This document shows, one piece after another, positions 3,367 to 22,985 of a stretch of 23,059 bases of DNA. The notes under the pieces were generated by a model. It saw only the letters and a program-made list of their open reading frames with translations. It searched no databases and was not told the origin of the DNA. Source of the stretch: a virus. The DNA lies in the IMG/VR virus record IMGVR_UViG_3300028920_000278, positions 1-23,059 of that record; one strand, 5' to 3'. Positions within the stretch are counted from its first letter, which is position 1; every line of letters starts with the position of its first letter. The position numbers and the translations under genes were made by a program.

Positions 3367-3375
3367 CATCTCCCC

Positions 3376-4020
3376 CTAGTCCAACGTCATCGGTTGGCCG
3401 CTCGGGTTCTGCGCCTGAGTGTGCCCGCCGCCGCCGGTTGTGCCGCCGCCCCCACCGCCCCCGGTGCCGCCCCCGCCCATGGGTGGGGTGTCATAGCCCT
3501 CTGGCATGGTGAAGCCCCCATTCTGGTATCTGATCTGCAGGCCGGGCTCGGGGGCAGCGAAAAACTCGGCCCGCTGCCCGGTCTGCAGCCCGGCCCTTGG
3601 CTTGAGGGTCGAGATCCCGAGCAGCTCGATGCGGAAACGGCCCCGACGGTCGACGCGGCACGCCCGGCAGCGCCATGGAATTTCGATGACATCGGCGTCA
3701 TTGACCTCGAGCACCACCGTAAGGGTGTTGCCCGACCAGGCCGCGCTGGTGAGGCCCATGCGCTCCTCATACCATGCTGACCTGACCTCACCGTCGAGGT
3801 CATCGAGGCTGACAGCCATGCGGCTGCGCTGGGGGTCATCGAGCACCATGCTGTCGATGGTCATGCCTCGAGGGTCGTAAACGTCGCCGCCATAGGTTAC
3901 CGGTCGGTCACCGGTGCAATACCGCAACGCACCGCTGGTGAGCGTTAGCTCGATGAGTGCCGTGCAGTCCTGATACCTCGAGGCAAGGGCCGCTAGTTGG
4001 TCATCGGTGTAGCCGTACAC
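3376..4020 (-). CDS. Tail-tip protein, DUF2163-like (214 aa)
   Basis: The start is GTG at 4020 with GAGGGGG 6 nt upstream. The N-terminal 160 residues fit the pattern of DUF2163-type tail proteins, also found in gene transfer agents: ALIELTLTSGALRYCTGDRP, VTYGGDVYDPRGMTIDSM, LDDPQRSRMAVSLDDLDGEV and WSGNTLTVVLEV. A WRCRACRVDRRGRFRIEL segment holds two cysteines. The last 33 residues are a Gly-rich tail (GGGGTGGGGGGGTTGGGG, then HTQAQNPSGQ). Similar proteins sit between the tape measure and the host-recognition proteins, as here. The tail shares the GGHTQ motif with the hub protein two genes later. Confidence 0.72.
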   Translation of the reverse strand: MYGYTDDQLAALASRYQDCTALIELTLTSGALRYCTGDRPVTYGGDVYDPRGMTIDSMVLDDPQRSRMAVSLDDLDGEVRSAWYEERMGLTSAAWSGNTLTVVLEVNDADVIEIPWRCRACRVDRRGRFRIELLGISTLKPRAGLQTGQRAEFFAAPEPGLQIRYQNGGFTMPEGYDTPPMGGGGTGGGGGGGTTGGGGHTQAQNPSGQPMTLD

Positions 4021-4030
4021 TCATGCCCCC

Positions 4031-7000: not shown

Positions 7001-7060
7001 GACCTGCTTGATGGCCCCCGTATTGTCGACAACAAACGTCAGCAGCAGCCGCTCAGCCAT
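4031..7060 (-). CDS. Tail tape measure protein (1009 aa)
   Basis: The longest gene in the tail block sits directly after the chaperone pair. Its product sets tail length; using about 0.15 nm per residue (known from other siphophages), the tail would be near 150 nm. The N terminus has a charged coiled coil (VDKLEREVKESGDEATRTGR) and a hydrophobic helix (about residues 50-67). A tape-measure-like block follows, with MARAGESYTENAESLQGLFS and the TMGKALAGNTGTLSRYGIVL pattern. A second Gly/Ala-rich hydrophobic region lies at about 555-598 and could insert in the host membrane during DNA entry. The C-terminal third is helical with long heptad stretches (QGTLQLMAQIDAMRQSINQG). No peptidase or lysozyme motif is visible. 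GGAGG precedes the ATG. Confidence 0.93.
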   Translation of the reverse strand: MAERLLLTFVVDNTGAIKQVDKLEREVKESGDEATRTGRKFDTMGGGIKASAAVAVAAIAGLAVAVRGMARFMGENLNMAAEQEAIFIDLASSMARAGESYTENAESLQGLFSEVQRFTKYGDTDTAAALEKLTTLSGSFDAAMTVLIPTLDAASATGSDLAIMAETMGKALAGNTGTLSRYGIVLDEATRKQLANADEMERAQILAAKLADQFGGASQAELQGYAAQVQQLGNYWGDARESMGQAIITLLEARGGTEGMRGSLESLVGWVNEVATSFVWFASLRWSDLVVAQFLKIEQVWLKVVRSVLGQLKVIVDEFARLPGGFGGMADLADDLSDSIDGLTQDIEKLGDVIRETEDSAIKPADDAAISFGKALSLGVSEAAAMAAQEVGALTNDLVDQQGEVSELTRLQQLAADTLAEQAAKYQGVSLSVIGLTMSSANLVPIVGQQVTAWQDATREVTAFEMALNDIIDVMPAFGAVLQTRIGDVLFEAFTGDFDGIIEAFNGLFDDIASMAADSLSQQVMQGLMGGGIDITQMAATAGVGIGTGMMATAEGSLGQSVLGGMIAGAGIGTMILPGMGTAIGAGIGAVVGAISSLFGGGNDDPSSRVYMQSGRPGAFGSQLRDQGAGAEEMRLFNLQIGELYRSTANAWRDSLLSFGDVDLFDLVLAEGVIDTGMLDLDADAMAEYLADVIFPEEFERRFRPAIDQGLSDLGVAEGVMAEFWSAWGDMGAEAGLEALQTFVQALVDSADLLASGEWDAIMADIAKTPLDRWRDFIGDASGQIELLRVGWDRMSLPDRAAEMLQINQTYQQALQGTLQLMAQIDAMRQSINQGWDRLRESVQLDQMSEGQQINYFSTRIMELMQALSEATDPSEVGQINAELQRYIQSLAGLVDLEASTSIWGGQTWGEHLEDLINQAQTLANTQLNEVETSVREEWESLTAQVQEARDSLAGFDEMLKNMTDGNVEMNVQFDPTINVTVENNTEVPLVTIVRAVVEEMLADGQGMQ

Positions 7061-7067
7061 CGTTTAC

Positions 7068-7858
7068 CTACCTCCGACCCCTGGCCCTTGGCCTGATGCT
7101 GCCGCGCCCCCTGACGCGCTGCTTGGCCTTTTCCTGGGCCTGCTTTTCAGCACGGGCTGCCGAGTCGATGCGCATGACCTCGTTAAAACAGGTGCCGAGC
7201 TGGCGCTGTATCGTCGGGCCCCAGTCACCCCAGACCTCGAGCACGGCCTTGATGTCGGCCCAGCAGGGCCCCAGGTAGCCGTTGAGCCCGGCGTGCCTGC
7301 AGCTGTACACCCGCATGAACGCTGACCAGGCCCGAGCGGTCGACGGCAGCGGCCGGGGCATGGTGACCCCGGCCTCTCTGGTGACCTCGGCAATTGTTGC
7401 CTGTTTTGCACCTGCTACCACCCGCCAGTAATCGAGTGAGCTGGGGCCGGTCCCGAAATAGAACCGCACCAGCTCGGTCAGTTTTTTTCTTCGACCTCAA
7501 CCGCTTTCGAGGCCAGGTCGGTGGCCGCTGTCCAGAGCAGCTTGCTGAGCGCTGGCACCGTGGCCAACGTGTCGCGGTTTTCGGGGGTGAACGGCACCGG
7601 GTTGCCCGCCGCATCCAGCAGGTTTTCCCAACCCTCGACCAACTCACTGAGCACCCGCTTGCCGACCTTGAGGGCTCGGGCCGTATCCTGCTCGAGCCCC
7701 TCGAACTTGACGCCCTCGGCCTGCAGCTTGGCCATCAGCTCAGGGGTCAGCGGCCTCATCTTGAAAACCGCAACACTGTCGGCAAACTCGACCTCAACAT
7801 CAACCGCGTTGGGTGAAAACAGCCCCTCACCCACCATGACATCACTTTTGATTTTCAT
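7068..7858 (-). CDS. Tail assembly chaperone, long form by -1 frameshift (gpGT-like)
   Basis: A -1 slip on A AAA AAC (7487-7481) joins the 126-aa frame to an open frame that runs to 7068. The predicted fusion has 263 aa with joint EEKKLTELVRFYFG. The extension (about 137 aa) contains SLDYWRVVAGAKQATIAEVTRE, a middle segment with WSAFMRVYSCRHAGLNGY, and an Arg/Lys-rich tail (ERS-like EKQAQEKAKQRVRGRGSIRPR). No ribosome binding site of its own is needed: the only start-like codon in that frame is GTG 7469 and lacks a good site. In lambda-like phages the long form binds tail tube subunits to the tape measure complex. The -1 signal, order and lengths all fit. Confidence 0.85.
7438..7487 (-). promoter_or_regulatory. 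Programmed -1 ribosomal frameshift signal
   Basis: The slippery heptamer A AAA AAC (7487-7481) is in the correct frame, immediately before the TGA stop (7480-7478). After a 5-nt spacer (TGACC, 7480-7476) a stem forms between GAGCTGG (7475-7469) and CCAGCTC (7444-7438). A second 4-bp helix lies inside (CGGT/ACCG). This gives the usual slippery site, spacer and stimulator set. The seven-A run is striking in otherwise GC-rich DNA. Confidence 0.88.
7478..7858 (-). CDS. Tail assembly chaperone, short form (gpG-like)
   Basis: The 126-aa acidic protein lies between tail tube and tape measure genes, where siphophage tail assembly chaperones are always found. It coats the tape measure during tail assembly and is not part of the finished virion. 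Features are MKIKSDVMVGEGLF, a VEVEFADSVAVFKMRPLTPE segment, and helices (LMAKLQAEGVKFEGLEQD, RALKVGKRVLSELVEGWENL, VPALSKLLWTAATDLASKAV). The start ATG has GGAGGTG 5 nt upstream. The 3' end reads GAA GAA AAA AAC TGA; this contains a slippery heptamer at which part of the ribosomes shift to make the longer form. Confidence 0.88.
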   Translation of the reverse strand: MKIKSDVMVGEGLFSPNAVDVEVEFADSVAVFKMRPLTPELMAKLQAEGVKFEGLEQDTARALKVGKRVLSELVEGWENLLDAAGNPVPFTPENRDTLATVPALSKLLWTAATDLASKAVEVEEKN

Positions 7859-7884
7859 GCGGCACCTCCATGCAATGTGTTATG

Positions 7885-7954
7885 GGTGCCCCTCGAGCGG
7901 ATTGAACCGCCCAGCCCTGGGGCATGAACCAGGGCCGCCACCGGCAGGGGCACC
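7885..7954 (-). ncRNA. Cloverleaf-like (tRNA-like) intergenic RNA structure
   Basis: Read on the minus strand, 70 nt fold into nested helices with almost no free junction bases. P1 is GGTGCCCCT with AGGGGCACC (9 bp). A small GCC-GGT-GGC hairpin follows. Then a 7-bp arm GCCCTGG/CCAGGGC has loop TTCATGCC, and a 7-bp arm TGGGCGG/CCGCTCG (two wobble pairs) has loop TTCAAT. The last arm resembles a tRNA T arm and directly abuts P1, as in tRNA. The middle loop contains CAT like a methionine anticodon, and a C plus CCA follows the 7-bp core of P1. The D-like arm is too short, the middle loop has 8 and the T-like loop 6 nt, so a normal tRNA is unlikely. No T tract follows, so it is not a standard terminator. 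Confidence 0.45.
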
Positions 7955-7974
7955 AGAGTCATCATGCCGCCGCC

Positions 7975-8973
7975 TCAGTAGCTCGTTACGTCATTGACCA
8001 GGGTGGCCACCAGCGAGCTGTTGTCGGCGTCATCCTGCCAGTAACCGGTGAAATCGAGCGACACCTGCACGCCCTGGGGCCCGTCGACCGGAGGGCTCGA
8101 GGGGCTGTAAATCAGCTCGTTGACCTCGAGGCTGAGGGTTTCGGGGGTGCCAGCACCGTCAGACCAGCTCAGCTTGAGGCTTGACTCGGTGTTGGCCAGC
8201 GCTTTCTCGAACAAGGCCGCCGATGCAAACAACGCCGTCAGGCTGCCGTTGACCATGGCAATGCCCTCGGGCAGGCAACCCAGCTCTCCCTGGGTGCCGA
8301 TGGCATAGATTTGCTCGAGCACGTTGTCGAGGGTCAGGCTGACGTTGGTGATGTTGGCGGCCGTGACCCCGCCTTCCTCGATGGTCAGGCTGAACTGGTC
8401 AATGGTGCTCTCGGTGTAGATGTTGGTCGGGGGGTCATCGAGGGGGTCGGTGGGGATCGGGTCGGTCATGCCCTTGCCCATGATGCCAAACTCGAAAATC
8501 ACGACGCCCTCGCTGGTGGCGTTGATGCTCATGGTGCCGACTTTGCAACCGTAGTATTGCAGCACCTCGCTCACGTCCTGATAGTCAACGTCAACGGTCA
8601 TGCCCTCGGGCAGCGACCCGAGGCTGGCCCCGTTGAAACCGACCTTGAACGTATGAGTGTTCTGGCCGGCTCCAGGGGTGTCGGCCTGAGTGACGGGCAC
8701 CCCGATGGCGTGCTTGAGCAGGTGCCCCACTGACTTGAGGTGCAGAGGGAACATGATGCTGCCGTCGACCATCACGTTGCCCCTGACCGGTGCGGCCGGG
8801 TTGCGGTTGCCCCTGAGCACCGGGTTCTCGAGCAGGTTGCGCTGGAACCACGCCCCGCCGAGCCCGCTGACCGGGATAAGTGAGCCCACCGGGGTGCCCG
8901 GTGGCGTGCCCCAGGTGGTCTCGTCGTAAACGATGACCCGAACCTGGCTGCCGAGTGCTGTACAGGTTGCCAT
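7975..8973 (-). CDS. Major tail tube protein
   Basis: The start is placed at ATG 8973 (332 aa, MATCTALGSQV). It follows GAGAGGAC by a proper distance and lies 5 nt after the previous stop; an earlier in-frame ATG (9015) lies inside the upstream gene. The N-terminal part shows the pattern of phage tail tube proteins: VRVIVYDETTWGTPPGTPVG (a typical T.G..P...G loop), SLIPVSGLGGAWFQRN, VRGNVMVDGSIMFPLHLKSV and VGHLLKHAIGV. Then come VSEVLQYYGCKVGTMSINAT and a repeat-like second domain (EEGGVTAANITNVSLTLDNV, VNGSLTALF). The protein would stack as hexamer rings to build the tail lumen. It is followed by the 116-bp non-coding region. Confidence 0.87.
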   Translation of the reverse strand: MATCTALGSQVRVIVYDETTWGTPPGTPVGSLIPVSGLGGAWFQRNLLENPVLRGNRNPAAPVRGNVMVDGSIMFPLHLKSVGHLLKHAIGVPVTQADTPGAGQNTHTFKVGFNGASLGSLPEGMTVDVDYQDVSEVLQYYGCKVGTMSINATSEGVVIFEFGIMGKGMTDPIPTDPLDDPPTNIYTESTIDQFSLTIEEGGVTAANITNVSLTLDNVLEQIYAIGTQGELGCLPEGIAMVNGSLTALFASAALFEKALANTESSLKLSWSDGAGTPETLSLEVNELIYSPSSPPVDGPQGVQVSLDFTGYWQDDADNSSLVATLVNDVTSY

Positions 8974-12171: not shown

Positions 12172-12786
12172 CTACAGGGCCTTGAGTTTGAGCTTAGCCA
12201 GGTCGAGACGATGCCTCGGTTGGGGCTCGGTGTTTTCGGATGAGGGCTCTGCCCCCTTGCTCTCATGATACGCCAGCACCTCGGCGGCCGACCTGTAACC
12301 GACCTCGACCTCGGTCTGTTTGAATGCGCCATAGGTTGCCACCGTCACGTCAAACAGCTCACCGATCTCGGTGATGGTGCGCTTGGGCACCTCGCCGCTC
12401 GAGTCCATCTCATCGGCGGCCACGGTGAACGCATAGCTCATTTCGTCAACGTCACCACGGTCGATGAGCACAACCAGGTCACGGGCCACCTGGGTGTCGG
12501 GCAGATCGACCTCGACCTTGAGGCCGTGTTCATCCTGCTCGAGCCGCAGCGTTTTTGGGGTGCGGCCGAGCACCAGGTTCGGGTCATGGTTGACCAGGGC
12601 CCTGGTGTCGGGCTCGGCCTCGAGCACGTTGGTGAACGCACCAGGGGCCACGGTCTCGATGAATGCCCCGCCGATGTTGGCCTCAACGTTGAACACGGCC
12701 GCATAGCCGACCAGGCCGGGGCCGCTGTCGCCCTCGGCCCTGACGGCCCGCAGCTCGGTAATGGTGCGCTGTTCTCTCATGGTCAT
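12172..12786 (-). CDS. HK97-type prohead maturation protease
   Basis: The 204-aa serine protease would cleave the scaffolding part of the capsid protein inside the prohead. It has the fold pattern of the family: GLVGYAAVFN (residues 24-33), a FIETVAPGAF segment, the catalytic histidine in LVNHDPNLVLGRT (H67), and the catalytic serine in DEMSYAF (S117). A downstream ITEIGELFDVTVATYGAF segment carries the likely third active-site acidic residue. In most relatives the last motif ends in PAY; here it is GAF. The ATG at 12786 has GGGGAGGTAG just upstream. A second in-frame ATG lies two codons later. The gene sits between portal and capsid genes, as usual. Confidence 0.94.
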   Translation of the reverse strand: MTMREQRTITELRAVRAEGDSGPGLVGYAAVFNVEANIGGAFIETVAPGAFTNVLEAEPDTRALVNHDPNLVLGRTPKTLRLEQDEHGLKVEVDLPDTQVARDLVVLIDRGDVDEMSYAFTVAADEMDSSGEVPKRTITEIGELFDVTVATYGAFKQTEVEVGYRSAAEVLAYHESKGAEPSSENTEPQPRHRLDLAKLKLKAL

Positions 12787-12789
12787 GGG

Positions 12790-14874
12790 CTACCTCCCCG
12801 CGATAATGCCACAGTCGCACCCTGGGTGCGCCGGTGGGTGGTATACGTCGGTCGAGGGCGTCAGGGCGCTGCCTGCCCCCTCGGGCTGATAGTTTGCACC
12901 GGCCCCGATGAATCCCTCGGTGACCCCGACAACCTTGCCGTGCAGGTCGAGACAATAGGGGCAGCTGTCGCCATACGCCTGCCAGACCACCGTGGCCACC
13001 CCGAGGCTGACCCAGACGGTGCGGCTGAACCCCTGCCCGAACTTGACCGGCTGGGCCGCTGCCGTCTTGTTTGCACGGCTGCGGCCTGCCGGTCCTCCAT
13101 CAGTCCACTCGGTCAGCCGCTCATCGAGCAGCTCAAGCAAGTCGGCATCGGCGGCCGCCTCGCTGAGCAGCTTGATGATCTGGGTTTTGCTCCGGTTGGC
13201 GTAGACCTCGGCAAACTGGGCCACGTAGCCGTTGACCCACCGCTGCAGCTGAGGGCTCATCTCGAAAACATCGGCAATCTCATCGGCGGCCGCGCCACCG
13301 ATGGCCTCGGCCATCGACTCGAACACCGGCCCGAGCTGGGTGCGGGCGTAACTGGTGTCACTGTAGAAATCGGTCAGCCATTCCTCAAAGGTCTGATCTG
13401 ACCTGGTGCCGAGGTGCCGCTTGGCCGCTGCCCTGATGGCCTCTACCTCGCGCCTGACAATGCGGCCCATGGCCTGCTCGAGCACCAAGCGGTAACTGCG
13501 CTCAATGCGCTTGCGGGTCAGGCCGACCCTGGCCCGGTTCTCACCACCTGGCTCGAGTTGAGACGGCCGCCGGCTGCTTGGCGCCGGCGCTTGTAAACCG
13601 TTGCAGTCACACCTATTTACGCCACCGGTCGGCACTGGCTGGCCACCCTCGGCCGGTGGCTCAGTCTCAGTTGCCACCAGCTCGAGCGGCACGTAGTTGA
13701 GCGGCACCATGTGCACGTCACCGTTGTCGATGGGGTTGAGGTTCTCGAGGGCTCGCACCTCATTGATGCTGAGTACCCCTCGGTCGAGCAGCGTTGAGTA
13801 GCTTTCAAACCTGGTAGCCGGATCGGCCCGCAGCAGGTTGTTGGTGTTGAATTCGACGTAAACCTGGCCCCATAGCTGCTCGGGGATGAGCACCCTGGTG
13901 ATGGCCTGCTCGAACCGCTCGAGCCAGGGCACCATGGTGTAGGTCAAAAACTCGAGCGACTGCTCGGTGATATTCGAGAACGTCGCCCCCTCAAGGTCAC
14001 CGATGAGATGCGCCGGCACCCGGAATGCGCCGGCGATCTCCGACCGGCTGAGCTTACGTGACTCGATGAACTGGGCATCATCCGGGTTGATGCTGATGGT
14101 CTGCCAGGCAAGCCCTTCCTCGAGGATCGCGGGAGCGTGCTGCTTGTCGCCCCCATGGTCACGGGCCCAGCTGTCTCTGATGCGGTCATGGGCCTCGGTG
14201 GTCAGCCGCTCGGGGTAGGTCAGCACGCCCGAGGCCGTGGCGCTGTTGCGGAAAAACCGGTTGCCATAGGCATCGACCGCAATGGCCCGGCTGAACCCCT
14301 CGCGCATGACCTTGATGGGGTTGTAGCCCACCACCCCGTCACCACCCAGGCCCTTGACGTGCACAATGTCTCGAGCTGGATACACCATCACGCCACCGCC
14401 TGGCGGCTGGTAACGGTACACCCGGCCATTGTTGGGCTCGGTGACAATCTGCACCCGGTCGGGCTCGAGGGGATAGAGGGCAGTCGGCACGGCCTGGCCG
14501 TCACGCTGCACCCGCCAGTAACCGTTGCCGCGCAGGCAGAGGTGCCCCATGGTCACCTCGAACAACTCGAAAGGGGTCAGGTTGGGGGCGGCCTCGAACG
14601 TCAGCAGCCTGGCCAGGGGCACGTCGGTGAGCTTGTCGCGGCCGCCGTCCGGTCGGCGCTGGTACAGGTTGCAAGGGAATGAGCCCATGGCCTCGCTCAG
14701 CACCCTGGTGCAGCTGTAGACCGCCATAAGCCCGATGACGTTTGAGAACGTGGCAGCGGCCCCGGCCTCACCGACGTTGATTCTGAGCGCTTTGAGGGCG
14801 GCCGGTGTGGCCTCGATGTCGCGGGTTTCGGGCCCGAGCCCGAACCAGCTGCGCAGCTTGTCATTCCAGCTCAT
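12790..14874 (-). CDS. HK97-type portal protein fused to a Mu gpF-like domain (694 aa)
   Basis: The first 400 or so residues are an HK97-family portal, which forms the ring through which DNA enters and leaves the head. Marks are AVYSCTRVLSEAMGSFPCNLY near residue 50, the central LGGDGVVGYNPI segment, and FRVPAHLIGDLEGATFSNIT followed by FLTYTMVPWLERFEQAITR. A linker with NRCDCNG (about 420) leads to a second, helical part. That part ends with CPYCLDLHGKVV (about 637) and HPPAHPGCDCG (679-689), the cysteine/histidine end typical of Mu gpF-like minor head proteins. Usual portals are 400-500 aa and gpF is usually a separate gene. The fusion means each portal subunit carries one gpF domain. No frameshift is seen at the joint. 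Confidence 0.92.
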   Translation of the reverse strand: MSWNDKLRSWFGLGPETRDIEATPAALKALRINVGEAGAAATFSNVIGLMAVYSCTRVLSEAMGSFPCNLYQRRPDGGRDKLTDVPLARLLTFEAAPNLTPFELFEVTMGHLCLRGNGYWRVQRDGQAVPTALYPLEPDRVQIVTEPNNGRVYRYQPPGGGVMVYPARDIVHVKGLGGDGVVGYNPIKVMREGFSRAIAVDAYGNRFFRNSATASGVLTYPERLTTEAHDRIRDSWARDHGGDKQHAPAILEEGLAWQTISINPDDAQFIESRKLSRSEIAGAFRVPAHLIGDLEGATFSNITEQSLEFLTYTMVPWLERFEQAITRVLIPEQLWGQVYVEFNTNNLLRADPATRFESYSTLLDRGVLSINEVRALENLNPIDNGDVHMVPLNYVPLELVATETEPPAEGGQPVPTGGVNRCDCNGLQAPAPSSRRPSQLEPGGENRARVGLTRKRIERSYRLVLEQAMGRIVRREVEAIRAAAKRHLGTRSDQTFEEWLTDFYSDTSYARTQLGPVFESMAEAIGGAAADEIADVFEMSPQLQRWVNGYVAQFAEVYANRSKTQIIKLLSEAAADADLLELLDERLTEWTDGGPAGRSRANKTAAAQPVKFGQGFSRTVWVSLGVATVVWQAYGDSCPYCLDLHGKVVGVTEGFIGAGANYQPEGAGSALTPSTDVYHPPAHPGCDCGIIAGR

Positions 14875-16412
14875 AGCCTTCTAATCCCTTCCCCGCCATA
14901 GTCGCTGACCCGCATCTCGGTCGGCACCACCATACCCCTGCCCAGGGCCATGATGAGAGCCACGGCCCCGTCGATGCGTTCGGTGCTCCGGTTCTTGGCG
15001 GGTTTGAGGTTGCCAGCTGCATCAGACTCGACCACCAGGTTGCTGATGTTCCACGCCAGCACCGGGTTTCCGTCATGGGTCAGCTGCTCACCGATGACGA
15101 TTTTCTCAAGTTCTTTTGTCGGTGGGTTCATTGATTTATAGCCCTGGCCGAACGGCACCACCGTCATGCCCTCATTCTGCAGCTGGGTAGTAATCTGGGT
15201 TGCGTTCCATCGGTCGATGGCCAGCTCGGCCACGTTGAACCGCTCAGCCACCTCGAGCACGTCATCCCTGATGCGGTCATAATCGAGGATATTGCCCGAT
15301 GTCGTGCTGATGAGCCCCTGCCTGACCCAAACGTCATAAGGCACCCGATCACGCTTGACACGCTGCCTGACGCTGTCCTCTGGCACCCAGAACCAGGCTC
15401 GGGTGTAGTAGCCACCACCAGGGCGCACCCAGACCAGGCTGAGGGCCGCCAGGTCGGTGGTGGTGCTCAGGTCGAGCCCTCCATAGCAGGGCAGCTCAGC
15501 AAGCTGCTCATAGGGCGGCAAGGTGCCGCTGCAGGCGTTCCAGTCTTCAGTGCCCAGCCAGGTCACGGCCACATCGACCCACTGGTTGAGGTGCAGCCGC
15601 CGAAACGCTGACTCACCGGACGGCAGCTCGATGGCGTCTCGACACTTCCGCTCAAGGTACTCCATGCGGACGCTGACGCCCAGGTTGGGGTTTGCCTTGG
15701 CCCAGACATCGGGGTCAGTCCAGTCATCCTCTGGTTCGGCGGCATAAATCACCGGCAGAAACGTCGGATCATCAATCACCCCATCACGCACCTTGACGGC
15801 ATAATCCCAAAGCTCAAAGCAGATTGACTGCCGGTCGACCCCGGCAGTTGTCAGGTAGATGGTGAGCGGCTGCCGCCTCGAGGCCGTCGAGGTTTCCATC
15901 ACGTCGACCAGGTCGCGGTTGGGCTGGGCGTGCAGCTCATCAAACACGATCCCGCTGGCGTTGAGCCCGTGCTTGCTGTAAGCCTCGGCGCTGAGCACCT
16001 TGAGGGTTGAGCTGCTGTGCGGCACCTTGATCTCGCGCCGGTAGGTCTGGCACCGGCTGCTCAGCGGCACGCTGTCTTCGATGAACTCCCGGCCGCATTG
16101 AAACACGATGGCCGCCTGGTCGCGGTCGCTGGCGCAGCAGTAGACCTCGGCCCCAGGCTCACCGTCGGCCATGAGCAGCAGCAGCCCGAGCCCGGCCGCC
16201 CAGGTTGATTTGCCATTCTTCCGGGGCACCGCGATGAACACCGTGCGGGTGACCCGGTTGCCGTGCTCATCGACCCTGCCCCAGACCTCGCGCACAATGT
16301 CGCGCTGCCAGGGCTCGAGGCTGAAAACCTCACCGGCGTGTTCACCCTTCCAATGCTTGAGCAGTGTGAAAAACTGCTCAGCCTGGTCAGCACGTTGGTG
16401 GTCAAACGGCAT
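14871..16412 (-). CDS. terL: Terminase large subunit (ATPase and nuclease)
   Basis: This is the packaging motor and DNA-cutting subunit, acting at the portal vertex. The N-terminal ATPase shows the family Walker A AVPRKNGKST (residues 61-70), Walker B with catalytic glutamate GIVFDEL (154-160) and a coupling motif TIYLTTAG (184-191). The C-terminal RNase H-like nuclease shows its acidic residues in GGLDLSTTTDLAAL (D314), ELAIDRW (D400) and ERIDGAVALIMALGR (D481). The length of 513 aa is normal, and all key residues are present, so it should be active. The start has GGGGTGA 4 nt upstream. The stop overlaps the portal start as ATGA. The pattern fits the P27/HK97-like terminase group. Confidence 0.96.
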   Translation of the reverse strand: MPFDHQRADQAEQFFTLLKHWKGEHAGEVFSLEPWQRDIVREVWGRVDEHGNRVTRTVFIAVPRKNGKSTWAAGLGLLLLMADGEPGAEVYCCASDRDQAAIVFQCGREFIEDSVPLSSRCQTYRREIKVPHSSSTLKVLSAEAYSKHGLNASGIVFDELHAQPNRDLVDVMETSTASRRQPLTIYLTTAGVDRQSICFELWDYAVKVRDGVIDDPTFLPVIYAAEPEDDWTDPDVWAKANPNLGVSVRMEYLERKCRDAIELPSGESAFRRLHLNQWVDVAVTWLGTEDWNACSGTLPPYEQLAELPCYGGLDLSTTTDLAALSLVWVRPGGGYYTRAWFWVPEDSVRQRVKRDRVPYDVWVRQGLISTTSGNILDYDRIRDDVLEVAERFNVAELAIDRWNATQITTQLQNEGMTVVPFGQGYKSMNPPTKELEKIVIGEQLTHDGNPVLAWNISNLVVESDAAGNLKPAKNRSTERIDGAVALIMALGRGMVVPTEMRVSDYGGEGIRRL

Positions 16413-16415
16413 CGG

Positions 16416-17444
16416 TCACCCCGTGTAACGCCGCTGCCGTACCGTGCTCAGGGCCACCACGTCACCGTCACCGGTCGGGGTGAATCGCAGCTCTGGCACC
16501 AGAGGGAAAGCCCAGTCAGGAATGGTGAACGCGAGTGATAGCTCAGCGTCAGGCGATTCTGTATCAATGTCCCAGCAATTCTCAAGGCCGCCTAAACCTG
16601 ACTCTTGAATGTAGACTGTCAACCCGCTCGAGTCGAGAATGATCCTGGTGCAAAGGTTTGCCCCGGCATTGATGAAACCCGAAACGCTATCGGTCACGGT
16701 TGTCGGGATGTTGTTCGAGCCGTAGTCGCTGACGGTGATGTCGAGGTCGCCCGAGCCCCTGCTGCCCGGCGCTATGGTGACAAGAATCTCATACTCACTT
16801 CCATGGGTCAGGGCAAACTCGAAAACACCCAGGTCACACAAAAACCTGGCGGCCCACTCATAGCCCACTGAGCTGTAGAAAAGCGGCATCACGTCATCGG
16901 TCGGCATGAGTACCCGAGCCTCGGCAGAATCGGACAGGTCAAGCTCGGCACCGAGCCAGCTGCCACCGACCGGCACCGGCCCCGGTGGAATGTTATAGAC
17001 CCACTCATCATCAGCATGACGGTTGATGATGAACAGCCCGCCAGAGCCGTCGATGGGGTAGGGGTCGAACGCTGTCCCGCTTTCCGGTGACCATTCCGTC
17101 TCGAGGTTTTTGGTGATGTCCTGGGCAATCAGAAACGGCCCCCCGACTGGGGTGCGGATTGCGCCGGCCGGGCTGGTGATTTCGAGGTCATACCAGAACG
17201 CACCAACGCGGTCGGTGTCTGTAGCTGATGGGGTGATTCTGACCAGGCCCGGCGAAACAATGGTGCCGGCGCAAGTGAATTCGGGATCATCAGCCGGGCC
17301 TGGCTCTTTTTTCGAGTTGACCGACATAAGTGCCGAGTAACCGGTCAGGTCGAGTAGGTTGCCGTCGGAGTCTGACAGCAAAAAATCGAGGTCGTAACTG
17401 TCACCCCTCACCATCTGAATGGGCTGCTGAACTCGCTTTGCCAT
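16416..17444 (-). CDS. Putative structural protein with BppU-like N-terminal domain (342 aa)
   Basis: Residues about 5-110 follow the pattern of the BppU-type N-terminal beta-sandwich of phage baseplate and appendage proteins: a GDSYDLDFLLSDSDGN segment, then LDLTGYSALMSV, then a TDTDRVGAFWYDLEI segment, then GGPFLIAQDITK. The remaining 230 residues are strand-rich with several aromatic residues, including WLGAELDLSD, YEWAARFLCDLGVFEFALTH and LCTRIILDSSGLTVYIQESG. They may form a lectin-like or LamG-like sandwich; that is an inference from pattern only. The ATG at 17444 is one base after the preceding stop, with a GAGG upstream. The gene ends 3 nt before the large terminase start. Confidence 0.55.
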   Translation of the reverse strand: MAKRVQQPIQMVRGDSYDLDFLLSDSDGNLLDLTGYSALMSVNSKKEPGPADDPEFTCAGTIVSPGLVRITPSATDTDRVGAFWYDLEITSPAGAIRTPVGGPFLIAQDITKNLETEWSPESGTAFDPYPIDGSGGLFIINRHADDEWVYNIPPGPVPVGGSWLGAELDLSDSAEARVLMPTDDVMPLFYSSVGYEWAARFLCDLGVFEFALTHGSEYEILVTIAPGSRGSGDLDITVSDYGSNNIPTTVTDSVSGFINAGANLCTRIILDSSGLTVYIQESGLGGLENCWDIDTESPDAELSLAFTIPDWAFPLVPELRFTPTGDGDVVALSTVRQRRYTG

Positions 17445-17445
17445 C

Positions 17446-17706
17446 CTAAACCTCGACTTTCAAACGGTCATTGATTTTGACGTTGATGCCGCCGTCCTGC
17501 TCGACATCAATGCCCCTCACCACTGTAACCTCGATCTCATCATTGGCCAGCTCGATTCTGAAACCGGGCTCAATCTGAACATCAACAGAGTCAACAATGA
17601 TTGTCTCGCCAGGCCCAGACCCGGCAGTAATTGCCAGCAGGTGCTCGAGCGCCGTGCCCGTTGACAGGCTCGAAAGCGAAACGAGCTGCTCGCCGGTGGT
17701 GGTCAC
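17446..17706 (-). CDS. Small hypothetical protein (86 aa) of the appendage cluster
   Basis: The frame could begin at a TTG (17724), but the better start is GTG at 17706. It overlaps the preceding stop as GTGA and has GAAGGTG about 5 nt upstream, giving 86 aa beginning MTTTGEQLVSLSSLSTGTAL. The product is acidic and appears all-beta, with alternating hydrophobic strands (ETIIVDSVDVQIEPGFRIEL, DEIEVTVVRGIDVE, GGINVKINDRLKVEV). It has no cysteine, signal peptide or membrane segment. It may be a small trimerising or capping structural protein partnered with its neighbours, but no family is recognised. Confidence 0.5.
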   Translation of the reverse strand: MTTTGEQLVSLSSLSTGTALEHLLAITAGSGPGETIIVDSVDVQIEPGFRIELANDEIEVTVVRGIDVEQDGGINVKINDRLKVEV

Positions 17707-18191
17707 GGTAACACCTTCGACCAAACGGCCTCAGCCGCCTGGGCCGCCGACAAGTCATTGAGCGCATCAACCGCAGACTGAATTTCATTGACAGCCAGCA
17801 GGGCGTCAGATTCCTCGGGCGTCAGCCCGCTCTGCCCGACCTCGACCACAGTCGAGGCCGCCGACTGAATCAGTAGCACCTGCACCCCGGCACTGTACGC
17901 GATGGGGTCGCCGCCAGGACCACCGACAAGATTGCCGCCCCTGACTGTGGCGATATAGGCCCCGGTTTCAAAGTGCAGCTGCCAGTCATCTTGCAGCTCG
18001 ACGGTGATGCCGACACCAACGCCACCGCCGAGCGATTCCTTGCCTGATGCTGTTGCTATTTGACTGTATGCCATGCCGGTCTGACTGGCCTCGGCCTCGC
18101 GGATTGCGTCGATGAGATCCTGCACCTCGACCTCGGTCTGACCACCGCCGACCTCGATGAATGAGTCGAGAAAATCGAAGGTAAAACTCAT
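17703..18191 (-). CDS. Hypothetical virion-associated protein (162 aa)
   Basis: The ATG at 18191 overlaps the previous stop codon as ATGA, so translation is probably coupled; no strong ribosome binding site is seen. The product begins with an acidic helical stretch (residues 13-45, VGGGQTEVEVQDLIDAIREA). A Gly-rich strand region follows (SLGGGVGVGITVELQDDWQL, about 51-70, then an IATVRGGNLVGGPGGDP segment). It ends with a helical region containing LTPEESDALLAVNEIQ and AAEAVWSKVLP. This arrangement of a beta segment plus a helical tail suggests a small oligomeric structural or linker protein rather than an enzyme. I do not recognise a family. Its position inside the appendage cluster suggests it assembles with the two large proteins before it. 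Confidence 0.55.
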   Translation of the reverse strand: MSFTFDFLDSFIEVGGGQTEVEVQDLIDAIREAEASQTGMAYSQIATASGKESLGGGVGVGITVELQDDWQLHFETGAYIATVRGGNLVGGPGGDPIAYSAGVQVLLIQSAASTVVEVGQSGLTPEESDALLAVNEIQSAVDALNDLSAAQAAEAVWSKVLP

Positions 18192-21070
18192 GCGACAATC
18201 GTATCTTCAACCATCTGCACCTGAACAGCGAGCCCGGCTGACGTGATGGTCGCAGGCTGCCTGATGGGCAGATAGCCGTAGAGTCTGACAATGATGAACA
18301 CCGGGGTGTCGCTTCCATAGTTGTAGCTGTCTGAATACTCCCCGCCCGACTCTGTACCGTCGCTGATGAGGGTGCCGTCTGTTTCCTCGATGCGTACCCT
18401 GGCGCCAGTCTCAAGGCCAGTGACCTCAAGCGTCACCGCATTCTGCACAGTGGTCGAGGCTCCCGATCCATTGCGGACTGTTGGTGACTGCCCACCGCCT
18501 GTGACGTTAATCGTGACCGAGCCGCCCGAGTTGTTGAACAGGGCAGCAGTGTCGGTCCCGTTCGCACCGAAGCCGGTGAACGTCAGGGAATCGAATGTGT
18601 AGGTTCCCGGTGTCTCGATGATGATCGCATGACCATCCACAAGATCGTCTGCTGCCTCAAACGCGCAGCCCGAGATGTCTGTGCTGCTTCTCCACGTTAT
18701 CATCCCATCGTCGGCAGGAACGTCTACGTTGACGATGAGGGTGGAGTTGCGGACCTCGGCACCGTTGTCGATGATGCCGTTTCCCCCGACGAAAAGCTGG
18801 CGGCTGAACGTATCGTCCACGTCAAGATTTACGTTTCCGAAGACGTAAGTGTTGCCGTCGAAGTTGTGCGTCGCCAATCCACTGAGAGTGTAGTCGACGC
18901 GGAACGGACCCGATGCCCCGATCTGCGAGTTCTTCAGCGTCAGCTCATCACCGGACTGCGAGAGGAAGTCAAATCCAACAACCTCACGATAAGTAGCTAA
19001 CCTTGTGGTTCCGTTTGCCAATGGTGGAAATGCAACCGACTTTTCTGAATCTGAAAAGAAAGTTGATTCTCCAGTTGCGCCAATCTGAAGAGAGCCGAGG
19101 TAGGTGAACTGAAGGTCCGATGGCTGTGATGCAAGTGCCGGAGCAAGTCTCGCAAAGAGTGCTGTCACTTGAGCAAGATCTACCGGAGCCGTAGAGAGTC
19201 CCCCGTATATTTTTAGCGGGTTAATAAGCCCAGGGGAGCCAATCTGGTTGACGTTACCGTCACTAACCTGCTTATTATTACCAATGTTCATATTGACTAT
19301 GTGGCTTACCGATGCCGCATTAAATGTCCCGAAAGACGAGTAGGCCATTTCCTGAACTGCCGTTGATCCCGGCTCGATCTGAGTGAACCTGTTAATGAGA
19401 TTTTTACCGTCAACATCAATATCGACCACTCTCCAAGCTATCCAGTCCCCGTCCGAGTCGATGAACACGATCAGAGATCGCTGGTAGTGAGACACATCGC
19501 TATCAATCTCAAAAGTGAGTATCTCGCTGGACATATCCCTTGGAGTTGAGAAGTAGGCGCTCACACCCTCGTAGTTCTGGTTAAATCCATTGTCACCTTT
19601 GTATAGGCCAAACCCGAAAGAGGTTGAGCCATGCTGACCCGAATCAGCCATCCCTGTGAAAGTTCCGTCGTCAGCAAAGACTCCAAAGTCCACGATGTAG
19701 CACGTCCCGCTTCCATCCTTGGTTAGCTGCAATGGGTCTTTAAAATCATCGCGACCAGAAGGGCCGGCAGTGAAAAACCAATTTTTATTATTAGTCATCT
19801 TCCCGTCAGTGGCAGTTCCAGCTCCGCACGGCACAAGCTGGAGCTTGGTATCACTCACGACCCATGCCCAATAGAACCCACCATCAGTGAGTGCAGAGTC
19901 GAGCGATCCGGTGTTCTCATCGAGGAACACTACCCTTGATCGAGTGATTCCGTGCGCGGCAGTCGTTGTGACAGTGCAAGGATCGAGGTAGTGAGTCTCA
20001 CCCGATCCAGCTGTGAGGTCCATCGGAGTGTAAAGAGTGAACTGCTGCAAGTCTTGGGTCCACTGCCACAGCTTAATCGTGTTGGCGTCGATCACTTCAA
20101 CGGTATAGAAAGTTGAGTCAGTCAGGCCGATGTTGTCACTTCCACCTGACTTCTCATACTTCACTTTTTGCCACTTCACAAACGGGTGACTCGTGATCGT
20201 GATCTCGTCGGTCGTGCCATTCACCGCACTGGAAGTGTTGAAGGACAGCCGTGCGTCCTCACCGCTAATCGTGGCCTGTGGGAACGCATCTCCTTCCATA
20301 TTCACGCCACTGTCACGCAGTGCGGTCAGCCATGAAATGTTGCCGTTGGTGTAGGAGAAAGTCTCGGTCGGATAATCGAGCGCTGCCGGTGGTGCCGTGT
20401 TCCCGTTCGTGAATATCTCCATCGTGAGAGCAACGTAGTCGTCACCCGTTGCCTCCCAGTCCACCCCGGATATCACCGTGCTGGCCGATTCATAAGTGAA
20501 CTCAATACCTGCAACTGTAGTATGGTCCTCACCCTCATTGCTACCAGTGGATTGCCGATAATCAGAGAACACGATGAAGTTCGGGCCGGGGTCAACATCG
20601 GGATTGAGTGGTGTTGCGTCTTCTGCCCACATCATCGAGAGAATCCACGAGTTTGCCTTTTCTGTTGTGATGTCAGGGTTATCTGTGTAGGTGCCGTCAA
20701 CTGTTCTTTGAGTAACAGCCGTTGCTCCTATCGAAAACGTATCAGTGGTCGTGTCCGTATCCGTGAACACAAACCCACCGATGGTCCACTCAGAGTCCGT
20801 TCCAGTCATAACTATGTCTGGATAGGTCTCACCGTCAGCTGTGGCAATCCTCTTAAAGCATACAACACGAAGGTCGTTGTCTTGTTTTGAGAACTCTACC
20901 GTCCACCCGCTCGGAGTCGTCGGAGTGGCAGGGCTGCTACTGACCTCGGTGGTGCCGACAAACAGAAGCATGAGATTACCAGTATCGGCACTCAGACCAA
21001 GCGCCGGAATCTCTAACGACTTCCCAACCCCCTCAGTGGTGGAGTTGTTTGACTCGTAGGTGTAGGCCAC
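18188..21070 (-). CDS. Large putative appendage or adhesin protein (960 aa)
   Basis: The gene starts with GTG at 21070 behind a six-G ribosome binding site 4 nt upstream, matching the layout of the preceding gene. The product is 960 aa, acidic and Thr/Ser/Asp/Gly-rich, and looks like a long all-beta extracellular protein. The N-terminal 200 residues resemble a jelly-roll-like module (PSGWTVEF, FVFTDTDTTTDTFSIGATAV). The middle contains strand-rich and NNS/GG repeats of the kind found in solenoids (about residues 700-880). The last 55 residues form a domain shared with the 470-aa neighbour (SDTPVFIIVRLYGYLP near the end). DNA from about 18600 to 21060 is visibly less GC-rich than the flanks, which points to an imported central part. 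It is most likely a receptor-binding or head/tail fibre protein. No enzymatic motif is seen. Confidence 0.6.
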   Translation of the reverse strand: MAYTYESNNSTTEGVGKSLEIPALGLSADTGNLMLLFVGTTEVSSSPATPTTPSGWTVEFSKQDNDLRVVCFKRIATADGETYPDIVMTGTDSEWTIGGFVFTDTDTTTDTFSIGATAVTQRTVDGTYTDNPDITTEKANSWILSMMWAEDATPLNPDVDPGPNFIVFSDYRQSTGSNEGEDHTTVAGIEFTYESASTVISGVDWEATGDDYVALTMEIFTNGNTAPPAALDYPTETFSYTNGNISWLTALRDSGVNMEGDAFPQATISGEDARLSFNTSSAVNGTTDEITITSHPFVKWQKVKYEKSGGSDNIGLTDSTFYTVEVIDANTIKLWQWTQDLQQFTLYTPMDLTAGSGETHYLDPCTVTTTAAHGITRSRVVFLDENTGSLDSALTDGGFYWAWVVSDTKLQLVPCGAGTATDGKMTNNKNWFFTAGPSGRDDFKDPLQLTKDGSGTCYIVDFGVFADDGTFTGMADSGQHGSTSFGFGLYKGDNGFNQNYEGVSAYFSTPRDMSSEILTFEIDSDVSHYQRSLIVFIDSDGDWIAWRVVDIDVDGKNLINRFTQIEPGSTAVQEMAYSSFGTFNAASVSHIVNMNIGNNKQVSDGNVNQIGSPGLINPLKIYGGLSTAPVDLAQVTALFARLAPALASQPSDLQFTYLGSLQIGATGESTFFSDSEKSVAFPPLANGTTRLATYREVVGFDFLSQSGDELTLKNSQIGASGPFRVDYTLSGLATHNFDGNTYVFGNVNLDVDDTFSRQLFVGGNGIIDNGAEVRNSTLIVNVDVPADDGMITWRSSTDISGCAFEAADDLVDGHAIIIETPGTYTFDSLTFTGFGANGTDTAALFNNSGGSVTINVTGGGQSPTVRNGSGASTTVQNAVTLEVTGLETGARVRIEETDGTLISDGTESGGEYSDSYNYGSDTPVFIIVRLYGYLPIRQPATITSAGLAVQVQMVEDTIVA

Positions 21071-21081
21071 GGTGCCCCCCG

Positions 21082-22494
21082 CTACGTCACGATGTTGTCG
21101 ACGGTCCTGATTGCAGCCTGAGACAGCCCGGTGCTCGAAACCGTGCCGTCAATCTCGAATGGAATGATGCCTTTCTTCCGCACCCGGATGCGCACCGGAA
21201 TGTCGGTGCTGTAAATGAGCGAGTTGCTCTCAGCGGTGGAATCGGCCACAAGGTCGAGCAGCGGCACCCATACGTCCTCCGCGCTGTTGTAGGTACGTCC
21301 CAGCCCACCAGGGTGCTCGGTGGCGTTGAGGGTGAACGTTGAGCCCGTCCACGATGAATAACTGTACCTGTCCTCGGTGCCGTCGCCGTTGTCCACCCGG
21401 AACCACCCAGCTGATGGCGTGTCGCCTGCGATGGATTCCTGCACAACAAAGTCAGGGTCACCGCTGCCGTTGCCGCTTGCCGCCCCGGTGTAGGTGTCTT
21501 TCTCGATGTCACCGGCTGGCGCATCGAGCACCGCCACCATCACGCTGTCGCCAGACACCAGCGACGTGACCTCGACATAAACCAGGTTGGGTGGGTTCTG
21601 GGTGTCACCGTCGGCGTCGGTGAGCTGAAATGTCTGGTTTGCGGCGTAGTTGGTGAGCCATACACCTCGAGCACCAAAGAACGTGCCGCCAGCAAACGTG
21701 CCGAACGGTGCAACCTTGATGGGTGTATACGGTGTCACCTCATCTGCCGACTGATAGAACTCGGCCGGGTTGCCGTTGAGGCTGCCGCTGGCGTTATGGC
21801 GGCAGGCCCACTTGAGCCGCTCGTAAACCTGAGCCATTGTGCGACCACCGCAGTCGATTTCAACGTCATACGGTTGCGGCCCGTTGCCGTTGTTCAGGTC
21901 TCGGCTGATCGAGCCGAAGGTAATCGTAACGTCGGTCCAGGTGGCGATGGTGCCCTCTGCGGTCTGGTTGTTTGCGTCTGTCGCGGTCGCCAACGGCACC
22001 GCGTTTCGGCCACCAGCCGTCAGGTCAATCTCGAAGAAATCGAACGCGCTGCCGAGGTCACGAATATAGACAGTGATAACGCTGCTGTCGATTTCGACCC
22101 CGGACGCTTTGACCTTGATGAGAACGTCGATGTGGTCGGTGCTCCACCAGGGGGTAATCTCTGCACCGTCCTGCTCGATGTAGATTTGAGATCCGGCGAC
22201 GATTGTGCCCAGGGTGTAGATGTTGGCCCATAAGTCATCATTGGTGGTGTCGTTGATGGCGCCGCCGCTCAAGTATTCATAATCCGAGTCGGAGCTAAAC
22301 GCCCAGCCGTTGATGAGCGAGTAGGCCGTCGGAGTCTGAGCCGACATCGGCACGTCATCGTCAAGCTGCCCCAGTTCATCGAAGGTATCCATAAGCCAGG
22401 AGTACATCTCATTACAGGTGTACACCGTGCTGCCGCTGGTGTGGCTGATCTCCTGGGTGCCGTAGTTGATTGTCCAGTCATCAGCGATTGCCAT
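21082..22494 (-). CDS. Putative virion appendage protein (470 aa)
   Basis: I do not recognise a named family with certainty. The protein is acidic, rich in Thr, Ser, Asp and Gly and predicted to be mostly beta-strand, as expected of an extracellular phage structural protein. An early segment (about residues 25-45, MYSWLMDTFDELGQLDDDVP) looks helical. A mid region carries repeated short strands with DPDFVVQ and DRYSYSSW. The last 43 residues (YSTDIPVRIRVRKKGIIPFE onward) align clearly with the end of the next gene's product, so both share a C-terminal domain. There is no signal peptide. The ribosome binding site is a six-G run 4 nt before the ATG at 22494. Its place directly after the small terminase is unusual for a virion gene. 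It could be a head fibre, decoration or tail fibre protein. Confidence 0.6.
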   Translation of the reverse strand: MAIADDWTINYGTQEISHTSGSTVYTCNEMYSWLMDTFDELGQLDDDVPMSAQTPTAYSLINGWAFSSDSDYEYLSGGAINDTTNDDLWANIYTLGTIVAGSQIYIEQDGAEITPWWSTDHIDVLIKVKASGVEIDSSVITVYIRDLGSAFDFFEIDLTAGGRNAVPLATATDANNQTAEGTIATWTDVTITFGSISRDLNNGNGPQPYDVEIDCGGRTMAQVYERLKWACRHNASGSLNGNPAEFYQSADEVTPYTPIKVAPFGTFAGGTFFGARGVWLTNYAANQTFQLTDADGDTQNPPNLVYVEVTSLVSGDSVMVAVLDAPAGDIEKDTYTGAASGNGSGDPDFVVQESIAGDTPSAGWFRVDNGDGTEDRYSYSSWTGSTFTLNATEHPGGLGRTYNSAEDVWVPLLDLVADSTAESNSLIYSTDIPVRIRVRKKGIIPFEIDGTVSSTGLSQAAIRTVDNIVT

Positions 22495-22508: not shown

Positions 22509-22985
22509 TTAGTTGGCCACCTGGCCGGTGACGGTTGACTTGCCGAGGTTGTCGATAAGCGCCCGAGCTTTGGCCTCATCAGACTCGACCTCGGAGTTGA
22601 CCGGGTTGGTGGGCGCGGCGCCGGCGCTGGCCGGGGTCAGCCCGAATTCCTTGAACATTCTGAGCATAATACGCTCGGCCTCGGCCCTGATGTTGGTGGC
22701 CGGGTTGCGCTTGGGTTCGCCTTTGTCGTTATAGACCAGTAGGCCCCTGACGGCCACGTTGGCCTCGGCCTGGGCAACTACGTCGAACTGCCGACACAGT
22801 ATCTCGAGGGCCGGCAGGTCACCCCTTGTCAGTGTGCCCCTCGAGCACAACTCACCACCGATGTCGCGCCATGCCTTGCGGCCTGGCGGCCCCATGCCCT
22901 TGGGTGCTCGAGGTAGCTGCTTCGGCAGCAGGGTGGTGCGAGCGGCAATTGTTGCCGTGCCTGGTTTGCGTTGGTTACCGGCCAT
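22509..22985 (-). CDS. terS: Terminase small subunit, P27-like
   Basis: The 158-aa product would recognise phage DNA and load it onto the large terminase for packaging into the prohead. The N terminus is basic and proline-rich (KPGTATIAARTTLLPKQLPRAP). It is followed by the family pattern of an alpha-helical core: a KAWRDIGGELCSRGTLTRGD segment (about residues 36-56), a helix with LEILCRQFDVVAQAE, and a late LRMFKEFGLTPASA segment (about 109-122). The last pattern and the overall length are typical of the P27 family. The start ATG at 22985 has a purine-rich GGGAAGGG about 8 nt upstream. Unusually, the large subunit gene does not follow directly but lies about 6 kb downstream. Confidence 0.85.
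   Translation of the reverse strand: MAGNQRKPGTATIAARTTLLPKQLPRAPKGMGPPGRKAWRDIGGELCSRGTLTRGDLPALEILCRQFDVVAQAEANVAVRGLLVYNDKGEPKRNPATNIRAEAERIMLRMFKEFGLTPASAGAAPTNPVNSEVESDEAKARALIDNLGKSTVTGQVAN

Follow-up and report, generated by a model that had tools for sequence, protein, structure and literature searches.

Which role could a block of five genes have that separates terS and terL, the genes for the small and the large terminase subunit, in a phage genome? The question is raised by IMGVR_UViG_3300028920_000278, a 23,059-base entry of a public virus database, taken in full, that is classed as linear and probably as a fragment, and which is called the window here. A sequence-only reading of the window had placed five virion-type genes (g470, g960, g162, g92 and g342) between the two terminase genes; their coordinates and order are confirmed, and terS and terL are genuine by their Pfam and PHROG matches. 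The arrangement departs from the usual adjacency, as seven of the eight terL relatives in which terS was also detected keep the pair within ~130 bp. In the eighth relative (L009), a 439-aa open reading frame (ORF) at 781-2100 separates terS from terL, so that the split is found elsewhere with other cargo. The cassette probably encodes an accessory appendage of the virion, comparable to the capsid horn of Synechococcus phage Syn5. Few phage appendages have been reported that are borne by the capsid and not by the tail, and a gene block so far unexplained would thereby be tied to one of them.

Relationship of the cassette core to Syn5 gp53, gp54 and gp55

The order g470-g960-g162 is the order of gp53, gp54 and gp55 in Syn5. 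Searched against 50,697 phage records, g470 has matches confined to Syn5 (two records of one phage) and S-TIP28, where the matched protein is gp53, a 'structural protein' (tblastn, E 4e-11). Compared as families, g470 aligns with gp53 at an HHalign probability of 98.5% (2.2e-15, 265 columns), g960 with the gp54 pair at 94.6% (7e-8), essentially in the C-terminal part, and g162 with gp55 at 86.6% (4.5e-6). Profiles made exclusively from IMG/VR, with Syn5 left out, recover gp53 at 7e-21 and gp55 at 2e-9, and the g960 profile recovers protein R179 of Rctr197k at 3e-17, all values that refer to small databases. R179 in turn links g960 (1e-22) with Syn5 gp54 (6e-11), while the g162 hidden Markov model finds gp55 and the S-TIP28 and Rctr197k proteins at 2e-9 to 6e-10. 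As both Syn5 gp53 and gp54 are annotated 'structural protein', this homology supports the earlier assignment of the cassette genes as virion-type, probably structural, genes.

Relatives of gp53 are present in six of the 50,697 phage records (Syn5 twice, S-TIP28, Maribacter phage Panino, Rctr197k and siphovirus ctPCi537), and in all six the gp53-, gp54- and gp55-type genes adjoin one another. The recurrence of the same gene kinds together in other phages agrees with the proposal that the products contribute to one assembly. No homologues of g470 or g162 were found in cultured phages when sought with the IMG/VR representative L053.

Gp53 and gp54 are presumably components of the capsid 'horn' of Syn5; they reportedly build this appendage, located at the vertex that faces away from the tail, and antibodies against the horn proteins are said to have left infection unblocked, which cautions against taking the appendage for the main receptor-binding device. 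Syn5 and the window have in common the three related genes in the same order, a module shortly upstream of terL and a gp54-type gene whose product varies in the body and is conserved at the C-terminal end, as seen for Syn5 in comparison with S-TIP28. However, Syn5 is a T7-like podovirus with terL ~1.4 kb downstream of gp53-gp54-gp55, whereas the window possesses tape-measure and tube-like genes, adds g92 and the BppU-like g342, carries the module between terS and terL and is similar to gp54 chiefly in the C-terminal part. New with respect to Syn5 are the occurrence of the same core in a different phage type, the BppU-like partner, the terS/terL slot and the rule of fibre exchange described below.

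Panino (CDS0100-0097) and ctPCi537 equally group gp53-, gp54- and gp55-type genes, but their gp53-type proteins are closer to Syn5 than to g470, and Panino has two gp54-type genes. The Panino genes are annotated as hypothetical, and 'structural protein' is the sole function label of the ctPCi537 record. Panino (PP540027) is a cultured podovirus that forms plaques with halos, and it offers a further phage in culture, besides Syn5, in which the function of the horn can be tested.

Exchange of the fibre body

Exchange was quantified in 25 complete cassettes (300 pairs), with loci left out that were incomplete or failed the length rules. For pairs with g470 proteins 80-90% identical, the median share of identical residues is 5% in the g960 slot, as opposed to 57% in g162. 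The C-terminal 90 aa are still detectably related in 176 of the 194 pairs with fibre bodies less than 10% identical. For example, L067 and L094 have 99.8% identical portals, 97% identical g162-type and 84% identical g470-type proteins and fibres that are related solely in the last 87 aa; along its length, the fibre of L067 has 87% identity to the fibre of L047. Most neighbouring genes of the Desulfarculales prophages L104 and L106 have ~80-95% identity, but the two differ in the g960 slot; Syn5 and S-TIP28 have 87% identical gp53 and 96% identical gp55 proteins, with gp54 related in the last 87 aa only; and the relatedness of the window g960 to its L024 counterpart is limited to the last 82-87 residues.

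By these comparisons the g960-type gene is the sole hypervariable cassette member, in which the body is replaced and the C-terminal transthyretin-like domain kept. Exchange of the block as a unit, considered in the sequence-only reading, holds for the cassette; that the g960-type gene alone is hypervariable had been missed. A role of the variable part in fitting the fibre to the capsid was considered and rejected, as bodies differ despite the 99.8% identical portal and are also common to phages with different head genes. The variable fibre suggests a changing contact with cell surfaces or polymers. The cassette also suggests a tail-independent route of phage-cell contact.

Domain anatomy and proposed architecture

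The C-terminal domain that the 470- and 960-aa proteins had been thought to have in common is borne out: residues 415-469 of g470 and 901-959 of g960 are 36% identical (E 5e-4), and in profile-profile comparison the two domains, which by these measures are homologous, match at 96.3% probability (E 1.5e-9). The g470 and g162 N-termini show no more than a hint of homology (27%, 6.6e-4).

The structure model of g960 is mostly under 50 in the predicted local distance difference test (pLDDT; mean 44.6) and is unreliable outside ~700-957. In it, residues 877-957 are transthyretin-like (81 residues aligned with an S-layer protein at 1.4 Å, VIA-align Z 11.3), and residues ~700-876 appear beta-helix-like, with Z ~9 to tailspikes and fibres such as Kp9 gp42 and CBA120 TSP2 over ~700-880. 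In g960 variability is found towards the N-terminus, and the C-terminal end bears the constant, docking-like domain, which is the reverse of the usual tailspike plan.

The AlphaFold2 model of g470 is of moderate quality (pLDDT 74.8, predicted template modelling (TM) score 0.50), with most of the C-terminal third above 85. In the model a C-terminal sandwich (~300-330 and 420-465) is interrupted by an inserted small domain at ~331-415; in the relative L111 the region past g470 residue 330 is shortened. No Syn5 sequences went into this model, and its top viral Foldseek match is a structural protein of Syn5 with 622 aa, the length of gp54 (E 7.8e-6); as the Foldseek TM-score is just 0.16-0.19, this is a local domain match. 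Whole-chain comparisons with the PDB covered mostly g470 302-465 and g960 877-958 and hardly the other parts. No solved structure related by sequence to the g470 family, the g162 family or g342 was found; a lone g470 row of the structure search (E 0.36) is taken as chance.

The similarity of g960 ~700-880 to beta-helix tailspikes and depolymerases would also fit proteins that are made but stay outside the particle, for example a secreted set of free capsule-degrading enzymes, and passages of the Panino paper ascribe the plaque halos of that phage to a depolymerase. Such a set is nevertheless improbable, as Syn5 gp53 and gp54 are annotated structural proteins and the constant part, g470, is beta-rich and has no enzyme family match in Pfam and PHROG scans.

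For the appendage of the Syn5 horn kind, we propose that g470 (gp53-like) forms the conserved shaft and g960 (gp54-like) a long, swappable, partly beta-helical fibre, and that their common C-terminal transthyretin-like domains hold the appendage together. Since shaft and fibre would be joined by these domains, fibre bodies could be replaced with the shaft unchanged. The g162 (gp55-like) protein would be a conserved small partner or assembly protein, and g342 and g92 would act as anchors. The cassette would have been inserted as a unit into the packaging operon and be transcribed with the packaging genes, so that the appendage would be made during head filling. The module moves between phages as a unit, with the fibre body exchanged separately and faster.

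Spread among phages

A scan of IMG/VR with the g470 alignment gave at least 252 confirmed stretches encoding g470 relatives, and a scan with g162 gave 77 loci. Bacterial genomes contributed three loci, two in Desulfarculales metagenome-assembled genomes (MAGs) and one in an Isosphaeraceae MAG. Contigs L104 and L106 from the Desulfarculales MAGs have IMG/VR twins (L109 and L024/L108, respectively) and combine a Mu-type head with a lambda-type tail; the L106 cassette adjoins an ORF that by eye resembles bacterial selA. In L096 a 2503-aa ORF (1008-8519) follows the g162-type gene, and L064 encodes a 1315-aa protein (12263-16210) with a match to the DarB-like phrog_10089.

The g470-type proteins of L035/L036, L053, L062, L049, L047 and L080 are 78-85% identical to each other, with the neighbouring major capsid genes belonging to phrog_138 (T4-like; L035/L036, scanned in L035), phrog_10 (L053), phrog_283 (L062), phrog_9953 (L049), phrog_212 (L047) and phrog_133/371 (L080). 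Hence g470 types of ~80% identity are found beside T4-like, HK97-type, P22-like and other capsid kinds. To these proteins the window g470 is 34-40% identical, and to its L024 relative 52%. The cassette core evidently represents a gene family that is widespread in many unrelated, mostly uncultured phages, a point missed by the sequence-only reading, and is common there as opposed to its presence in six of the 50,697 phage records. A shaft of ~80% identity across capsid families combined with an independently changing fibre is reminiscent of a natural plug-and-play system.

Tentatively, and with somewhat less than even confidence, horn-type capsid appendages could be more than a peculiarity of one cyanophage, namely an organ that spreads horizontally and occurs generally among tailed phages, whichever of the three tail types they have. 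Such an organ would combine a near-constant shaft, fitting particles of different capsid families, with interchangeable fibres plugged in by a C-terminal domain, and would have escaped notice almost entirely owing to its rarity in cultured phages. Titles and abstract openings in the literature gave no horn-type module outside Syn5, a weak negative as subscription papers are mostly uncovered.

Head or tail

The sequence-only reading had suspected a BppU-like domain in one of the proteins, and residues 6-114 of g342 do match phrog_1084 (3e-15), with the C-terminal part having no known relatives. The protein is related to a 116-aa protein of L066 (blastp 4e-10); a full-length relative was sought and not found. 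Such a phrog_1084/BppU-like gene accompanies the cassette in L021, L024, L027, L053, L066 and L072, and in the relatives examined a small ORF of 56-156 aa adjoins it, as g92 does in the window; by sequence, no relative of g92 was found. BppU/LtfC-like domains are known from tail organelles. Likeness to these anchors extends to the BppU_N match above the Pfam cut-off in the 112-aa protein of L024, but g342 itself has no Pfam match, including BppU_N, and is encoded beside terL.

The position of the cassette in relatives was surveyed with neighbouring genes chosen by eye and scanned against PHROG (L111, L168, L165, L119 and L127 by blastp to labelled genes). Terminase genes are neighbours in L053 (terL on one side, portal on the other), L052 (terS-terL just downstream), L021 (terL just upstream), L019 (terL and portal downstream), L127 (terL downstream), L111 (terL, then the cassette) and L168 (the whole terS-to-capsid block, then the cassette). 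Further head genes are found in L028 (capsid-protease and decoration upstream), L035 (T4-like prohead protease and capsid), L037 (T4-like portal and protease), L165 (T4-like context), L062 (portal upstream, capsid downstream), L049 and L080 (capsid nearby), L119 (capsid upstream), L047 (scaffold and capsid upstream) and L067 (portal). Tail genes adjoin the cassette in L024 (tape measure and tail tip), L027 (tail tip) and L083 (tail protein), whereas in the window the cassette is encoded apart from tail-tip genes; L023, L038, L041, L046, L048, L061, L064, L072, L084, L091, L098 and L105 have mixed or no usable neighbours. In L111, a 652-aa ORF (394-2352), ThyX-like by eye, lies between a weakly terS-like ORF and terL.

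The objection that the gene order might be an artefact, with the same genes elsewhere only at the tail end, fails, since relatives adjoin terminase, portal and capsid genes in many independent contigs; some cassette relatives do sit at the tail tip. A test with fixed markers, two head and two tail kinds that miss capsid and protease genes, found a head marker in 30 of 50 cassette records (within 5 kb in 8) and a tail marker in 15 (within 5 kb in 2). The by-eye impression that the cassette is nearly always beside head genes is unsupported by this test, and this strong form is withdrawn. As the position varies between terS/terL, terL/portal, capsid side and tail tip, it cannot decide between head and tail.

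The cassette might alternatively specify a tail-attached fibre or receptor-binding apparatus, with a BppU/LtfC-type anchor and a beta-helical adhesin, that is encoded in the packaging block by chance. This explanation draws on the BppU_N match in L024 together with weak LtfC matches in L053 and L027, on matches of L053 and L066 to phrog_3304 ('L-shaped tail fiber protein assembly'), on the tail-tip position in L024, L104, L106 and L027 and on the inserted domain of g470 (331-415), which is similar to small domains found in phage tail tips and in a tailspike (Z 8-9; best 9.1, 74 residues, 2.0 Å). The direct homology to Syn5 proteins which we take to be horn components speaks against it, as do the cassettes inside the head operons of the T4-like L035, L037 and L165, between terL and portal in L053 and beside terminase genes in L052 and L111. 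We regard the tail apparatus as rather unlikely.

Several points nevertheless weigh against an appendage of the Syn5 horn kind. Besides the tail-organelle background of the BppU/LtfC-like domains, the tail marker is the nearer one in 7 of the 11 records with both marker kinds and the head marker in 4 of the 11, and the window-like cassettes with long flanks (L024/L106 and L104) lie between tape measure and tail tip. The links to gp54 and gp55 are moderate in strength, and g960 reaches gp54 solely via family profiles and intermediates. The assignment of gp53 and gp54 to the horn is a presumption; for Syn5, passages of PMC10575957 describe, apart from knob-like proteins, just a horn-like structure opposite the tail. 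Panino is presented as an ordinary podovirus in passages of its paper, where the words protrusion and appendage are absent. Placement on the head, in the manner of a horn, is slightly favoured over the tail. The head fibre guessed at in the sequence-only reading gains support from the homology to gp53 and gp54 as presumed horn proteins, with placement on the head a tentative reading for this phage itself.

Gene order and borders of the cassette

All phage genes of the window lie on the minus strand and are transcribed in the order terS, g470, g960, g162, g92, g342, terL, portal, protease, major capsid protein, head-tail connectors, tube-like protein and tape measure (Table 1). The tube-like gene matches phrog_290, named 'minor tail protein'. 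This gene order, including capsid, connectors, tube-like and tape-measure genes, identifies the phage that carries the cassette as long-tailed, with an HK97-type head.

Table 1. Cassette genes and flanking packaging genes of the window
Feature	Coordinates	Strand	Support
terS, small terminase subunit, 158 aa, borders the cassette upstream	22509..22985	-	Pfam Terminase_4 8.9e-19; phrog_83 3.8e-26
g470, 470 aa, conserved core (putative 'shaft') protein, Syn5 gp53 relative, beta-rich	21082..22494	-	tblastn, HHalign, model
g960, 960 aa, candidate exchangeable fibre/adhesin, counterpart of Syn5 gp54	18188..21070	-	HHalign, VIA-align, variability
g162, 162 aa, small conserved partner, Syn5 gp55 relative	17703..18191	-	HHalign, HMM
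g92, 92 aa, small and apparently beta-rich, start codon TTG, membership least certain	17446..17724	-	position only
g342, 342 aa, N-terminal BppU/LtfC-like sandwich, proposed anchor or assembly protein	16416..17444	-	phrog_1084
terL, large terminase subunit, 513 aa, borders the cassette downstream	14871..16412	-	TerL_nuclease 1.7e-45; TerL_ATPase 1.2e-25; phrog_9 8.7e-169
portal, 694 aa	12790-14874	-	PF04860 5e-108

From terS to portal, the intergenic gaps are 14, 11, -4, -22, 1, 3 and -4 nt, so short that the gene starts are coupled, as had been noticed earlier. A consensus scan around the cassette gave no excess of promoters or terminators (5 promoter-like and 3 terminator-like sites, with shuffle means of 3.1 and 6.2) and hence no clear interruption of the terS-to-portal block. 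The cassette genes have a lower guanine-cytosine (GC) content (0.53-0.60) than the other 16 genes of the window (0.60-0.70), also at third codon positions (GC3, 0.60-0.75 versus 0.75-0.84), which fits the expectation for a later arrival.

These shifts in composition at the cassette borders, in a window that is a single 23 kb metagenomic record, could also point to an assembly chimera of terS, cassette and terL. Yet the borders are tight (14 nt on the terS and 3 nt on the terL side), with purine-rich stretches resembling ribosome-binding sites, and the module lies beside terminase genes in the independent contigs L019, L021, L052, L053, L111 and L127, which makes a chimera very improbable.

Downstream of the cassette, the C-terminal end of the portal has a weak Mu-F match (E 0.004, under its cut-off), which suggests a portal-MuF fusion. 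Ahead of the tape measure, two small ORFs of 126 and 133 aa (7068-7975), which follow a gap of 116 nt, might encode a pair of tail-assembly chaperones.

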